A stretch of DNA of 64,000 nucleotides from Lentimicrobiaceae bacterium (GTDB lineage Bacteria > Bacteroidota > Bacteroidia > Bacteroidales > F082), in contig PANC01000015.1 in NCBI GenBank assembly GCA_002708315.1, forward strand, positions 81,671 to 145,670, in the 5' to 3' direction. Positions within the stretch are counted from its first letter, which is position 1, and the number at the start of each line of letters is the position of its first letter. The notes beneath the pieces were generated by a model. That model searched no databases. It worked only from the letters and a program-made list of their open reading frames with translations, and was not told the DNA's origin. The position numbers were made by a program, and so were the translations under genes. Positions 54,163 through 59,149 of this stretch are shown here, in pieces.

Positions 54163-54735
54163 TTATTCTAGTTCCATAACTAATATTGGTATTTTGGGAG
54201 TAAGATATTGATTATGTTCCGGTTGCTTATGAATAGTATTTACTACATTCATGCCATATATTACTTTACCAAATGCAGCAAATCCCTCACCATCAGGATT
54301 GCGTTTTCCACAATAATCAAGGTCAGGCTGATCGCCAATGCATATAAAAAACTCAAAAGTTGCCGTACCTGGTTCATATCTTGCCATTGAGATAACCCCA
54401 TTTAGATGCTTGATGTTAGTTTGAGCCGTATTCTCATGAATAATTGGTGGTAGAAGTGAAGGGTGATTTTCTTCATAAAGACCACCTTGGATTACAGCTA
54501 TTTTTATACTGTCTTCCAATTGATTATTATTGGTAACCGTGCGATAAAATGAAGCACCCTTAAATCTATTTTCTTTTAGATATTTTATAAAATTACCACA
54601 AGTAATTGGAGCATTTTCCTCATATAGTTCAACTCCAATTAATCCAAAGTCCGTTTCAATAATAACTACCGAGTTGTTTTGTTTACATGAGGCGATTAAC
54701 AGTAAGCAACAAATAATAATAAATATCATTTTCAT
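54163..54735 (-). CDS. Cyclophilin-type peptidyl-prolyl isomerase lipoprotein
   Basis: 190 residues from ATG 54735; a TTG at 54744 lies in the -7 box 54742-54749 and cannot be the start, and a second ATG at 54729 is equally possible. Lipobox LLIASC then KQNNSVV. The cyclophilin core is partly degenerate: GLIGVELYEENAPITCGNFIKYL, GASFYRTVTN (the catalytic Arg of FHR is retained as FYR), ISMARYEPGTATFEFFICIGD, GFAAFGKVIYGMNVV. Envelope-located isomerase; Gly/Gln contacts look altered, so activity may be low. Confidence 0.88.
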   Translation of the reverse strand: MKMIFIIICCLLLIASCKQNNSVVIIETDFGLIGVELYEENAPITCGNFIKYLKENRFKGASFYRTVTNNNQLEDSIKIAVIQGGLYEENHPSLLPPIIHENTAQTNIKHLNGVISMARYEPGTATFEFFICIGDQPDLDYCGKRNPDGEGFAAFGKVIYGMNVVNTIHKQPEHNQYLTPKIPILVMELE

Positions 54736-54741
54736 ATCACT

Positions 54742-54749
54742 CAAACATA
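54742..54749 (-). promoter_or_regulatory. -7 box abutting the cyclophilin lipoprotein
   Basis: Minus-strand TATGTTTG ends six bases before the ATG at 54735. Confidence 0.45.
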
Positions 54750-54892
54750 CAATATTTTCCGTAGGATAAATAATGAAGTATGAAATGGGGGTTATATGGT
54801 AATCAATAGATTTGTCGGCAATTTTTTTGATAATAAATATATGGAAAGGACGATTAATATTTTTCTTAGTATGAATTACTTATAAATTTAAA

Positions 54893-54900
54893 TATTTTTG
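54893..54900 (+). promoter_or_regulatory. -7 box for the sigma-factor operon
   Basis: TATTTTTG fits TAnnTTTG and gives a leader of about 150 nt before the sigma gene. Confidence 0.4.
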
Positions 54901-54972
54901 TGCAACTACTAATCGTGATATCAACAATGATGAAAAATACATAGTTCCATGTATTTGTCTGTGTTGTGCAAC
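54898..54972. promoter_or_regulatory. Repeats in the leader of the sigma operon
   Basis: TTGTGCAAC occurs at 54898-54906 and again at 54964-54972. Between them AAATACAT (54935-54942) and ATGTATTT (54949-54956) form a perfect inverted repeat. They lie in the 319-base gap upstream of the sigma gene, and could be an autoregulatory site or an RNA hairpin; the rest of the gap shows nothing else. Confidence 0.4.
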
Positions 54973-55054
54973 CATTATACCTGCTCAAATGTCAAAAGTA
55001 TTGGTTGAAGGTACTTTTTGGCTTCCAGGGTATTCGTAATGTCACTTAAAGGTA

Positions 55055-55621
55055 GTGGACATCCGTATGGAACTTGATAGTGCCTTCATAAATAAACTTA
55101 AAGAAAACGATGCAAAATCGCAACGTTTATTTTACCAGTATCTAGCACCTAAGATGTATGGTATTTGTTTGCGTTTTGCTTTAGTAAATGAAGATGCTGA
55201 TGACATATTACAGGATGGTTTTATCAGGGTATTTAGGCATATAAAAGATTTTAGGGGTGAAGGATCCTTTGAAGGCTGGGTGAGAAGAACCATAGTAAAT
55301 ACTGCAATAAATTACTATAAAAAGAAGATTAAGCAGGGAATAACTACTGATCTTGAATATGTAAAAGGAAAATTAAAAGAAAGAAATGATATTTTAGAAA
55401 AGATGACATGTGACGAGCTTCGTATTATTATAAACGAGCTTCCGCCTGGCTACCGAATGGTATTTAACCTAAGTGCAATAGAGGGGTACACTCACAAGGA
55501 AATAGGAGAAATGTTAGAAATTAGTGAGAATACATCTAAATCGCAGCTTTCAAGAGCCAGAGCATCATTGCAAAAAAGCATTGCTAAAATTCAACAAAGG
55601 GAAAACGGTGGAAAAGGATAA
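55055..55621 (+). CDS. ECF RNA polymerase sigma factor
   Basis: 188 residues from GTG 55055, with an equally possible ATG at 55067. Region 2 spans about 25-90 (FYQYLAPKMYGICLRFALVNEDADDILQDGFIRVFRHI, GWVRRTIVNTAINYYK) and region 4 about 125-180 (LPPGYRMVFNLSAIEGYTHKEIGEMLEISENTSKSQLSRARASL). This fits the ECF sigma family of Bacteroidota that pairs with a downstream membrane anti-sigma. The next gene overlaps by 14 bases (GTG at 55608) and is its probable anti-sigma. Confidence 0.94.
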   Translation: MDIRMELDSAFINKLKENDAKSQRLFYQYLAPKMYGICLRFALVNEDADDILQDGFIRVFRHIKDFRGEGSFEGWVRRTIVNTAINYYKKKIKQGITTDLEYVKGKLKERNDILEKMTCDELRIIINELPPGYRMVFNLSAIEGYTHKEIGEMLEISENTSKSQLSRARASLQKSIAKIQQRENGGKG

Positions 55622-56912
55622 TAAAAATATTGATATACTCTTAAGAGATAAGTTTGAAACTTATGCTCCTGTGCCTCCCCAGCATATCTGGTCTGGTGTT
55701 GAAAAGGGCATTAATAAAAACTCTAGTTTCATTACATCAAACAAATATCTGATAGCCGCATCCATTCTTGTTATGTTGTCAATTTCTTTTGTTTTATTTT
55801 ACCCATTCTCATCTAATCAAGACGATATTTCTATTATTGTTGAGAATGTCAATAAGCCAACTAACAGTATAAAAGAAGAAACAATCATTAAATCAGAAAC
55901 TGAAATATTTGTTTTAGAAGAAAACACAAAGAGTCCAAAACCAAGAACCCTAAAAGAAACCAAAAAAACCAAAGAAATTGATGATCAACCAGACATTAAA
56001 GAGCTTAAAGAGCAATCCTTTGAGGTGGTGGAATATAAGTCTCACTTTGGCTCCGGAGTCATGGGGTCACTTGATATGAAGCATGACGATTTTACAATTA
56101 ATGTTGAAGATGATTCGATAGAGCCAATGAATAGGATGGGGGCCTCCGAGGCAGATAAATCAGAAGATAATTCTAAAGATATTATGCCCAATGATAAAAG
56201 ATCAAGTGGGTCACATTGGCAGATTGGCATTAATATATGGCCTGAGTTAACTGTTTCTAATATTGATTCCGTGGAAATATTAAATACATATAGCTTAAAT
56301 ATTGAACCTACACTATACATAAATGATAATTGGTTCATAAGAACAGGGATTGGGCTATCTTATGTTCAAGATAGAGGATTTGCTCAGATAAATTATAATA
56401 CAAATGAATTAATGGGCTCATATGAAGACGTATATGATATAACATTTGATTCGGTAGATGGAGTTGTCACACCTACTTATCATACTAAAGCAGTTGAGGT
56501 TTATGATTCGGTAAAACATTTTACGATTTCCAACATTACAAATAAATACTTGTATTTGCAGATACCACTTTCAATAGGGTATTCCTCCAAGATAAATAAC
56601 TCCTCATTTAATTGGTATGTATATGGGGGATCGTCCATGTTTATTCGCACAAATACTTGGCTTGATAAACCAACATTAAATCAGACAGATGTTGATATTA
56701 TTGATCTCAATAATGACTTACCCGAAAGAGTAGACGCTTACTTTCAATTATTTATAGGAGCGGGAATTGGGTATGATTTAAGTGATAATTTTAACCTTAC
56801 GCTTGAGCCAACATATAACAACTACCTTACCAACGTCTATGATAATTCTAATAATAAAGGACCAACATCAGGCTTTGCTCTTAGATTGGGCCTTGTTTAC
56901 AAACTGAAATGA
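55608..56912 (+). CDS. Single-TM anti-sigma-like protein fused to a beta-barrel
   Basis: 434 residues from GTG 55608. The N-terminus (residues 1-40, LLRDKFETYAPVPPQHIWSGVEKGI) is the pattern of Bacteroidota proteins that follow ECF sigma genes and likely hold the sigma; one membrane helix follows (YLIAASILVMLSISFVLFY, about 45-63). A charged, low-complexity periplasmic linker (70-195) leads to an outer-membrane-type beta-barrel at about 205-434 (WQIGINIWPEL, NWFIRTGIGLSYVQD, YLYLQIPLSIGYSS, FQLFIGAGIGYDL, GFALRLGLVYKLK). The protein would bridge both membranes. It overlaps the sigma gene and, by four bases, the PKD gene. Confidence 0.85.
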   Translation: MEKDNKNIDILLRDKFETYAPVPPQHIWSGVEKGINKNSSFITSNKYLIAASILVMLSISFVLFYPFSSNQDDISIIVENVNKPTNSIKEETIIKSETEIFVLEENTKSPKPRTLKETKKTKEIDDQPDIKELKEQSFEVVEYKSHFGSGVMGSLDMKHDDFTINVEDDSIEPMNRMGASEADKSEDNSKDIMPNDKRSSGSHWQIGINIWPELTVSNIDSVEILNTYSLNIEPTLYINDNWFIRTGIGLSYVQDRGFAQINYNTNELMGSYEDVYDITFDSVDGVVTPTYHTKAVEVYDSVKHFTISNITNKYLYLQIPLSIGYSSKINNSSFNWYVYGGSSMFIRTNTWLDKPTLNQTDVDIIDLNNDLPERVDAYFQLFIGAGIGYDLSDNFNLTLEPTYNNYLTNVYDNSNNKGPTSGFALRLGLVYKLK

Positions 56913-58480
56913 TGAAAAACATAACTTTAAATATATATATTAAAGGTTTACTCTTATTTGGTATAATATTTTTGTCTCAACAGAGTATCATAGCTGATAA
57001 TTCTGCCAATCAAATAATTGTGTCAGGCCAGGTGACCAATTTCGAGTACGGTAATGTAATACATAACCATCCCGTTTACATTACAAGTGATGTAACCCTA
57101 CATAAATTGCGTAGCTATTCAAAAGTTGTTTATACTGATGAGCAAGGCTATTATCATGATACTATTTCAACCATAGATACAAAGGGATCACTATTGATAT
57201 ATACCACTGATCATGAAGGTAGAATATTAGATACAACAGTTCATTTTAGATTTCTCAACAGAAATACTGATTTTATAATAGCAGATTTTAGTATTTATCT
57301 TCCATTTAAACCTCTTGATTTGCAGGCAAGGTTCAAATATGTTAGAAAAATCAATGGAGATAAGCATAAATTTAGTTTTTTGGATCAAACAGATTCCCAA
57401 CACATTATTTCCTGGTTTTGGGAATTTGGAGATGGTGAAACATCAAATCGTCAAAACCCTACCCATAGATACGCTGATGTAGGATTATATAAAGTACGCT
57501 TAACCGTTACAGCCATACTCAAAGGAATAGTTCAAACCAGTTCAATTACCAAACAAATACACCTGCAAAGAGAAGAATACTTTCACATGGGAGGTCATGT
57601 GTTTTCTGATTACTTCCCCATAGATAAGGGGTATGCATATTTATACTTAATTGATTCATTGCAGAATTATATTGCAATTGATACCATGCCTTTTGATACG
57701 ATGGGGTATTATTATTTTTATCATGTGCCGGAAGGTAAATATTTGGTAAAAGCAGAACCGATGAAAGAATCTGAGTATTATGATCAATTTTTACCAACCT
57801 ATTATGGAGATTTTCTTTATTGGCAAAATGCTAGTGAAATCAGTCTACATTCAACATCATGGGAGTATGATATTAAGTTGGTTAAATCACCAGATATCTC
57901 TGCTTTTGGTGGCTCTGGATCAATTAGCGGAAATGTTGAATTTTCATTTGAGGATAAATCAACTTCAGGTATAGTTGCCGATGGTGTACATATATACTTG
58001 AAAAATGATCAGGATGATATATTAACCTGTCATTATTCAGATGAATTAGGTGAATTTATCTTTGATTTAATAAGCTTGAATACATATTGGATATACCCTG
58101 AGGTTACAGGAATTACAACAGAACCATTTAAAGTTGAACTCAATGCCATCACTCCAACTGTGGATGACATTACAATAAATATAAATTTTGGATCCATTAG
58201 TTATGTAATGCCTGCAGATAATGAAATAAATAATGTTGTAGGACTTCCATTTCCAAATCCTGTTATGGAAAATCTTACCATTCTTATTAATACACCTAAC
58301 CAAAATATTATTTATGAGGTTTACGACAATTGTGGCAGGCTTATTGAAAATGGTATGATTGATTCATCGAGGGATAACGAAATTAGATTAAATACTCATT
58401 TTTATAAAAGAGGTATATATACACTTAAAGCCACGTCTAGCAATAAATCTGCCATAAGAAAATTTGTGGTGGTAAAATAA
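56909..58480 (+). CDS. T9SS-exported PKD domain protein
   Basis: 523 residues, starting inside the stop of the barrel gene (ATGATGA). Signal peptide about 1-30 (LLLFGIIFLSQQSIIA). A carboxypeptidase-regulatory-like strand domain comes first (ANQIIVSGQVTNFEYG), then a PKD domain at about 140-225 (FSFLDQTDSQHIISWFWEFGDGETSN), further Cna/CarbR-like strands (YYFYHVPEGKYLVKAEP), and a type A sorting domain from about 445 (FPNPVMENLTILI, RLIENGMI, RGIYTLKA, KFVVVK). It is the likely surface output or sensed partner of the sigma/anti-sigma pair. Confidence 0.9.
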   Translation: MMKNITLNIYIKGLLLFGIIFLSQQSIIADNSANQIIVSGQVTNFEYGNVIHNHPVYITSDVTLHKLRSYSKVVYTDEQGYYHDTISTIDTKGSLLIYTTDHEGRILDTTVHFRFLNRNTDFIIADFSIYLPFKPLDLQARFKYVRKINGDKHKFSFLDQTDSQHIISWFWEFGDGETSNRQNPTHRYADVGLYKVRLTVTAILKGIVQTSSITKQIHLQREEYFHMGGHVFSDYFPIDKGYAYLYLIDSLQNYIAIDTMPFDTMGYYYFYHVPEGKYLVKAEPMKESEYYDQFLPTYYGDFLYWQNASEISLHSTSWEYDIKLVKSPDISAFGGSGSISGNVEFSFEDKSTSGIVADGVHIYLKNDQDDILTCHYSDELGEFIFDLISLNTYWIYPEVTGITTEPFKVELNAITPTVDDITININFGSISYVMPADNEINNVVGLPFPNPVMENLTILINTPNQNIIYEVYDNCGRLIENGMIDSSRDNEIRLNTHFYKRGIYTLKATSSNKSAIRKFVVVK

Positions 58481-58486
58481 TAAGAT

Positions 58487-58522
58487 AGCCTACCACTGTG
58501 GAATAAGTGTGTTATTTAGGCT
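58487..58522. terminator. Possible shared hairpin between convergent genes
   Basis: AGCCTA (58487-58492) pairs with TAGGCT (58517-58522) with a long loop; no clear T run. It lies between two convergent genes. Confidence 0.25.
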
Positions 58523-58525
58523 GAT

Positions 58526-59116
58526 CTATTCTATGATAAACTTTTTCTCTACACTTCCATCATCATATATTTCAATGAATGGAATGTTTGGAATTGGAGA
58601 TATTTCTCTACCTCGGAAGTCAATTGTTTTAATTAACTTTTTATTTCTTTCAATACTTATTTCTGTTAAATTTACTGTACCATTATGAAGTATAATGGTT
58701 ACGGGATTAATACAGGTTGAATTTAAATCTGATAAAATTAAATTTCCATTAACTACTGTATTATTAGAAAAATTATTAGAATTAAATGTTACTTCGAAAT
58801 CAAAATCTATAGTATCTCTAGTTGAATTTTGTGTTAGATGAGTAAAAATATGACAGTTAAATCCCGTATTAAAGAACCCCGTAAAATAACTTACACTTAT
58901 TAACGAAGTATCATCTAAAACTAAACAATGACTTGGGTATATCATACTATTAGAATCATTATAAAAAATAGTATTTGATATCATATTATCATTTAAGGAA
59001 ACGTGGAACGTATCCTCCATATAAGTCACATTTTCACAATCAATAGTGTTTGATTGTGAAAACATATTTATATTAAAAACACCTAACAAAAAAAATATTA
59101 GTAAGAGTTTTTTCAT
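58526..59116 (-). CDS. Exported protein of unknown function
   Basis: 196 residues from ATG 59116 with a signal peptide (MKKLLLIFFLLGVFNINMFSQ); an ATG 27 nt upstream is in frame but would precede the promoter box at 59121-59128. The mature part is Asn/Ser/Thr-rich beta sequence (FNSNNFSNNTVVNGNLILSD), with an end that resembles a T9SS tail only weakly (KLIKTIDFRGREI, IYDDGSVEKKFIIE). That tail (NKKLIKTIDFRGRE) is like the last two strands of a type A domain. No other homology recognised. Its 5' end lies over the truncated hemolysin III gene. Confidence 0.7.
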   Translation of the reverse strand: MKKLLLIFFLLGVFNINMFSQSNTIDCENVTYMEDTFHVSLNDNMISNTIFYNDSNSMIYPSHCLVLDDTSLISVSYFTGFFNTGFNCHIFTHLTQNSTRDTIDFDFEVTFNSNNFSNNTVVNGNLILSDLNSTCINPVTIILHNGTVNLTEISIERNKKLIKTIDFRGREISPIPNIPFIEIYDDGSVEKKFIIE

Positions 59117-59120
59117 TTTC

Positions 59121-59128
59121 CAAATATA
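59121..59128 (-). promoter_or_regulatory. -7 box abutting the unknown exported protein
   Basis: Minus-strand TATATTTG ends four bases before the ATG at 59116; a leaderless message is expected. Confidence 0.5.
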
Positions 59129-59149
59129 AAAAAATGTAAACATTAATTA

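Follow-up and report, generated by a model that had tools for sequence, protein, structure and literature searches.

Anti-sigma factors that reach across both membranes of the cell envelope in one chain have already been published for Bacteroides thetaiotaomicron, where Dma1, Dma2 and Dma3 make up a dual membrane-spanning class (PMC13088901). According to the accessible part of that paper, a Dma protein combines an anti-sigma domain, a helix, a disordered tether and a barrel, and its gene lies beside that of an extracytoplasmic function (ECF) sigma factor of group ECF21; deletion of a Dma protein is expected to release its sigma factor, with a vesiculation or regulon phenotype, the Dma2 phenotype depends on das2, and the signal sensed by the Dma proteins is deferred there to future work. 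A pair from Phocaeicola vulgatus, in which the anti-sigma factor carries an outer-membrane barrel, belongs to the same class (available text of PMC9308784). Class I anti-sigma domains adjoin just 6% of Bacteroidetes ECF genes, so that other anti-sigma types are expected in the phylum (PMC7406223, as far as its accessible text goes). Here, a stretch of 64,000 nucleotides (the window) from a Lentimicrobiaceae bacterium was analysed (GCA_002708315.1, contig PANC01000015.1; G000:C14:81671-145670 in our numbering), taken from an assembly of 2.0 Mb in 31 contigs that is 78% complete. Three overlapping genes on the same strand of the window, at 55067-58480, encode an ECF sigma factor, a barrel fusion protein and a PKD-domain cargo of the type IX secretion system (T9SS). 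By sequence homology the fusion is a Dma-type protein, and its architecture is itself not new; the operon probably works as an autoregulated Dma-type sigma/anti-sigma circuit, with the T9SS cargo as its output and perhaps as its sensed partner.

All operon features lie on the forward strand. The sigma gene (55067..55621) starts with ATG and encodes 184 amino acids with Sigma70_r2 (PF04542) and Sigma70_r4_2 (PF08281) above the Pfam cut-offs. It overlaps by 14 nt the fusion gene (55608..56912; GTG start, 434 amino acids), which in turn overlaps the cargo gene (56909..58480; 523 amino acids) by ATGA; reading frames, start and stop codons and both overlaps were checked directly on the sequence. 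An earlier interpretation made from the letters alone (the sequence-only reading) had proposed an overlapping operon of ECF sigma, fusion and T9SS PKD protein with the third gene coupled by ATGA. All of these elements were recovered, the ATGA at 56909; the operon start that it placed at 55055 is an upstream GTG, and the sigma gene it announced begins at the ATG at 55067. Both flanking genes (54163-54744 and 58526-59143) are encoded on the opposite strand, so the operon seems to be isolated and to comprise three genes. The same three genes with identical overlaps were found in a Lentimicrobiaceae metagenome-assembled genome (L001, the G006 locus). An Rfam scan of 54700-58700 returned zero matches, and a scan for generic sigma-70 promoters and terminators gave no excess over shuffled sequences.

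The fusion was modelled with AlphaFold2, with 54 aligned sequences as input (mean pLDDT 74.6, pTM 0.55). Helices were predicted at residues 4-17, 25-36 and 43-64; the first two fall within the putative N-terminal anti-sigma domain (residues 1-40, 55608..55727), which bears a PP...W motif with the conserved W28, and the third would be the inner-membrane helix (55734..55799, hydropathy 2.27). It is followed by a disordered tether (about residues 66-200, 55803..56207), in which pLDDT is mostly below 50 and confidence is low for the greater part of residues 66-196, and by an 8-strand barrel (residues 203-432, 56214..56903), most of which exceeds a pLDDT of 90. The barrel is closest in fold to NspA, OprF, OmpW and the OmpA membrane domain (Z 16-17; Foldseek, VIA-align), which points to a small outer-membrane barrel rather than a periplasmic one. 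The Pfam OMP_b-brl model scored 25.6 bits on the fusion, slightly under its cut-off of 28.7, and PHROGs and a sequence search of solved structures gave chance-level rows only. The domain layout foreseen by the sequence-only reading is thus supported. Its acidic linker of about 125 residues measures about 135-138 residues, and with 31 D/E against 19 K/R it is mildly acidic in the window's fusion; acidity was rejected as a family trait because the tethers of other members are neutral or basic.

Tether length ranged from 111 to 361 residues with a median of 154 in the 111 measured of 118 family members; five members were unmeasurable, and two were dropped for want of a helix, namely L119 (a 269-aa frame) and L038, which a contig start truncates. 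These lengths fit with the need to span the periplasm. As an illustration only, a worm-like-chain estimate gives a spring-like tether a tension of 8-12 pN at 20-25 nm. Three members (L143, L147 and L149) have tethers of 335-361 residues, far above the median. Within the barrel, strands 3 and 4 are joined by a long hairpin, L2 (residues 253-311, 56364..56540), which is predicted to face outside because both barrel ends would be periplasmic, an orientation derived from the strand order. In the orthologue alignment L2 has the highest mean conservation of twelve regions (0.69), followed by the last strand (0.68), and the tether has the lowest (0.26).

Like the Dma proteins, the window's fusion has a single predicted membrane helix, a long disordered tether, a C-terminal barrel and an adjoining ECF gene. 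The dma2 neighbour DUF4943 was sought in 198 genomes of the order, of which seven were positive, and six loci were fetched; two of them (L182 of G298 and L183 of G290) carry a sigma gene and a fusion immediately upstream. The order in L182 is sigma, fusion, DUF4943, DUF4858 and a further same-strand gene at the position of BT_1555, and as DUF4943 and DUF4858 follow the fusion this corresponds to the dma2 operon order of B. thetaiotaomicron described in the accessible part of PMC13088901. The window-family profile matched the Dma2-position fusions at E 5.8e-23 (L182) and 1.4e-13 (L183), and fusions near a divergent NigD gene at 2.6e-29 (L117) and 7e-24 (L118), the assignment of L182 to dma2 and of L117 and L118 to Dma1 or EcfO-Reo being made from neighbouring genes rather than from named sequences. 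The N-terminal profile alone reached 2.1e-9 in L182, and 5.1e-9 and 4.8e-10 in the NigD-linked L117 and L118. The barrel profile by itself also matches Dma-type loci, profile-profile comparison gave a probability of 97.7 across 103 columns of the barrel, and the conserved N-terminal W is common to the window's family and the Dma2-position protein of L182. As regards group ECF21, the window's sigma profile matched the Das2-position sigma at 1.1e-56, but any ECF could score against this profile. Both dma2 and the window's fusion lie in three-gene operons; the third gene is DUF4943 in the former and a T9SS cargo in the latter, and the window-type hairpin is longer (59-63 residues in cassette members against 8 in L182 and 17 in L117 and L118). 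That a surface event might be read by an inner-membrane anti-sigma factor without a TonB relay, as the sequence-only reading suggested, agrees with this domain layout, and the idea itself had already been published, to judge from the accessible text of PMC13088901 and PMC9308784.

The pairing with a sigma gene was followed in two sets of loci. The nearest-genome set covered 61 genomes, 32 with a fusion match, and 56 fusion loci including the window and L001 were examined; an ECF gene stands directly upstream of the fusion in 53, the other three being cut by contig starts. Across the phylum, the profile search matched 137 of 247 genomes, barrel-only or N-terminus-only matches included, and 60 loci were chosen (three for DUF- or order-level interest, two from the window's own genome, the rest from the phylum search). 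Allowing for over-long overlapping frames, the sigma gene is directly upstream in 59 of these, and L116 has a FecR gene between. It is conceivable that the N-terminal helices do not bind sigma at all and that the fusion is a barrel furnished with an anchor or export signal, whose sole link to its neighbour is co-transcription; sigma binding is a prediction, and the N-terminal domain has just about 40 residues. We regard this as very improbable, given the sigma gene directly upstream in 112 of 116 loci of both sets together, the W at position 28 in 103 of 115 members, which is also found in the Dma2-position protein, and the dependence of the Dma2 phenotype on das2 stated in the available text of PMC13088901. 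The N-terminal profile matched 116 of the 2215 open reading frames of the fetched loci, and 114 of these were family members. Two further arrangements were seen. At L065:6476-7599, a second sigma gene precedes a 199-aa protein that matches the N-terminal anti-sigma profile with no barrel match, perhaps a barrel-less relative. At L115:4116-6183 (G000:C8, in the window's own genome), a third family member with apparent tandem anti-sigma motifs (by eye) before the membrane helix adjoins a short sigma frame (149 aa) and a 288-aa possible lipoprotein.

Upstream of the sigma gene lies an ECF-type promoter sequence, TGCAACCATT-N13-TGTCA (54967..54994), which ends 72 nt before the start codon. The strict form TGCAACC[A/T]TT-N13-TGTCA was found in 16 of 18 upstream regions of close orthologues (exceptions L040 and L041), and the loose form GCAAC[CT]-N13-18-GTC in 17 of the 18, against 0.07 in shuffles. 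The loose form was present in 10 of 34 other relatives (shuffles 0.09) and in one of 59 phylum loci (shuffles 0.16). Exact and one-mismatch sites were listed for five genomes of the genus (G000, G002, G003, G004 and G006): each holds one exact copy, the operon's own, and 0, 1, 0, 2 and 1 one-mismatch copies, respectively; G001, G005 and G007, outside that listing, carry the promoter at their operons. In each of the eight genomes, sites with up to two mismatches outnumbered those of the backward control by a factor of 2.4-4.5 (23 against 6 in G000). The regulon search by promoter motif proposed with the sequence-only reading thus gave the operon's own site as the sole exact copy in five genomes, with a two-mismatch excess besides. 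From this motif distribution we infer autoregulation, with the operon itself as the main target of its sigma factor.

The third gene product carries an apparent signal peptide (by eye), a PKD domain (PKD_4, PF18911, above cut-off), a 122-aa partner domain with a PTYYG motif (57578..57943) and a type A sorting tail (Por_Secre_tail, PF18962, 41.8 against a cut-off of 27 bits; TIGR04183, 35.6 against 23), so the exported surface protein anticipated from the letters is borne out by a sorting-tail match over the curated cut-off. The same three-gene order recurs in relatives, with a T9SS-sorted protein next to the fusion in 44 of 52 scorable loci; the other four of the 56 are unscorable owing to contig ends (L005, L046, L050 and L078), and in L005 and L046 the truncated frames can be recognised as kin of the window's cargo. 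By Pfam, 41 of the 52 downstream frames have a type A sorting tail and one (L076) a type B tail, and the profile built here finds 42; the L045 cargo also has a sorting tail (Pfam 43.3 bits), and L049 is cut at a contig end, yet was scored positive by our profile. Eight loci lack a sorting-tail neighbour: in L075, L077 and L079 a protein of 296-298 aa comes after the fusion (RskA_C was found in three members of the set), L081 and L082 are two more (LVIVD was found in two members of the set), and L080, L083 and L084 have no same-direction gene next to the fusion. For comparison, sorting-tail matches at E <=0.001 number 80 in the 2.0 Mb genome as a whole, or about 4-5% of its genes at an assumed density of one per 1.1 kb.

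Most of the cargo proteins are related to one another and have in common the 122-residue partner domain, usually behind at least one PKD domain. Among 57 matches to this domain in 22 genomes, 19 of which had been chosen for holding the fusion, 42 lie directly behind a barrel gene and eight behind a sorting-tail gene of the same cassette; one lies 709 nt behind an interrupted frame, four are at contig ends and two are elsewhere. This places 51 of the 53 scorable matches in Dma-type or split barrel operons, in a tally that leaves aside 21 further matches not scored as a whole. Of the 32 genomes with a fusion match, 30 have the domain, as do 3 of the 27 without one; two of the 61 genomes lay outside this search, and a fusion-negative genome may still carry a split barrel. 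Second cargo copies behind the first give four-gene cassettes in L051, L054, L055, L059, L064, L066, L067 and L069. The third gene had been proposed as sensed or controlled by the system; the conserved gene order and promoter favour control, and sensing is a hypothesis that we take up below.

A split version of the system, composed of an ECF sigma factor, FecR, a barrel protein and a T9SS cargo of about 1000 residues, occurs in ten genomes, including the window's own (L116:1297-7533 on G000:C10, with an STN-type 8-strand barrel and a 1022-aa cargo). The gene order is the same in the nine related genomes, with the cargo frame interrupted in L226. All ten second genes have FecR and FecR_C above cut-off. 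In the barrel protein, STN takes the place of the anti-sigma domain, and a signal peptide is apparent by eye; STN reached E <=0.05 in seven of ten (best 2.7e-7), and the L116 match is sub-threshold (19.2 against 28.4 bits). In a lower-confidence model of the split barrel protein (mean pLDDT 66), residues 51-123 form a twofold beta-alpha-beta unit and residues 208-433 an 8-strand barrel. The barrel matches that of the window's fusion with a profile-profile probability of 97.1; neither PHROGs nor the search of solved structures by sequence returned a row for the split barrel. That related barrels and cargo occur with two kinds of anti-sigma factor argues that barrel and cargo would form a sensing unit. 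FecI-FecR-FecA resembles both versions in that an outer-membrane barrel drives an ECF sigma factor, and the split cassette has FecR (10/10) and STN (7/10); in contrast, the three genes of the window operon include neither FecR, nor STN, nor a large TonB-dependent receptor.

In the circuit that we favour, the N-terminal helices of the fusion would hold the ECF sigma factor at the inner membrane, the flexible tether would cross the periplasm, and the C-terminal barrel would sit in the outer membrane with its conserved hairpin outside. An event at the surface or in the outer membrane would alter the barrel or the tether (by a change, a pull or a cut) and free the sigma factor, which would recognise GCAACC-N16-TGTC upstream of its own gene and have the whole operon transcribed. 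The products would be further sigma factor, further anti-sigma factor, by which the response would switch itself off, and the PKD protein exported through the T9SS. This cargo is the clearest candidate output; it may in addition act on the barrel as a ligand or modulator, which would complete a loop at the surface.

Several observations weigh against this interpretation. Sigma binding, topology and expression of the fusion are predictions, and a profile built from close orthologues only (A1) finds Dma N-termini weakly (6e-4 to 6e-6) and misses the L183 N-terminus and the Dma barrels. Four of the six fetched DUF4943 loci have neither sigma nor fusion alongside. The two-mismatch excess may leave room for a wider regulon, as weaker sigma targets may exist where such sites exceed the backward control. 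A sorting-tail gene comes next in just five of the 60 phylum loci, one of them the own-genome split cassette; since most such operons elsewhere do without it, the T9SS cargo is a feature of this lineage. Finally, a link between hairpin and cargo has no independent support on the tree (three starred pairs, p 1, in a test that coded L045 as without cargo although it has one).

The 55 phylum loci in which no sorting-tail gene adjoins would suit a sensor of envelope stress, in which the folding or insertion state of the barrel is the signal (poor BAM or lipopolysaccharide function) and the T9SS protein a mere downstream product. In P. vulgatus, the toxin BcpT induces a corresponding sigma/anti-sigma system, and the authors of that study favour envelope stress as the likely signal (accessible text of PMC9308784). 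A pure stress sensor, however, would presumably not need a highly conserved external hairpin, nor a family of cargo proteins that accompanies the barrel in the split cassette as well, and we rate this explanation as a serious contender whose chances fall somewhat short of even.

The same two features would be accounted for if sigma activity were set by binding of the T9SS protein, or of an unprocessed surface form of it, to the L2 hairpin, such that the circuit monitors whether its own product is secreted or loaded. The concentration of the partner domain in barrel operons, its presence beside the barrel also when the anti-sigma factor is a separate FecR, and the position of the hairpin as the most conserved region of the fusion are consistent with such gating by cargo, and a precedent is offered by PorA, a sorting-tail protein upstream of PorXY-SigP (as described in the available part of PMC7712824). 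The hairpin has 59-63 residues in 42 cassette members and 8-101 in others, among them 70 residues in all three of L075, L077 and L079, where no T9SS cargo follows. This pattern is suggestive of a hairpin-cargo link, but it is confounded by ancestry, and hairpins of 59-61 residues also occur where no sorting-tail gene adjoins. The pattern is strong but lies nearly all in one part of the tree, and it was set aside as proof because the independent-pairs test was not significant. Gating by cargo is accordingly offered as a tentative explanation, distinctly possible but not the one to be expected. More speculative, and in our view rather unlikely as a whole, is a general barrel-plus-cargo module, in which the T9SS protein would be a dedicated ligand of the hairpin, wired through either a Dma tether or a FecR/STN relay without a TonB-dependent receptor, and a surface protein would be transcribed according to its arrival at the surface.

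Besides the Dma/Das pairs, the autoregulated Dma-type circuit proposed here also resembles EcfO-Reo and M0N98_03760-61 of Bacteroides and Phocaeicola, which likewise consist of a sigma gene followed by a predicted periplasm-spanning anti-sigma factor with an outer-membrane barrel. In the accessible text of PMC9308784, the described system has no T9SS partner, and its activation is followed by NigD genes and longer O-antigen, unlike the window operon. In PorA-PorXY-SigP of Porphyromonas gingivalis, too, a surface protein with a T9SS sorting tail acts upstream of an ECF sigma factor, there through a two-component system, so that PorA is likened to the window's cargo by role (available part of PMC7712824). 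The fusion architecture was on record by 2024, and an anti-sigma factor like it had been described in 2022. A literature search, which most subscription papers and the original Dma1 paper (where neighbours may be mentioned) lay outside, found neither a T9SS cargo in such operons nor a split barrel cassette. The part that seems new is the cassette: we are aware of no description of a lasting pairing between a Dma-type anti-sigma factor and a dedicated partner exported by type IX secretion. A Dma-type protein with one conserved surface protein, one conserved hairpin and a near-exclusive promoter would make a small, testable system for one-chain signalling across two membranes, and with the fused and FecR/STN versions as a natural pair, tether and relay could be compared using a related sensor.

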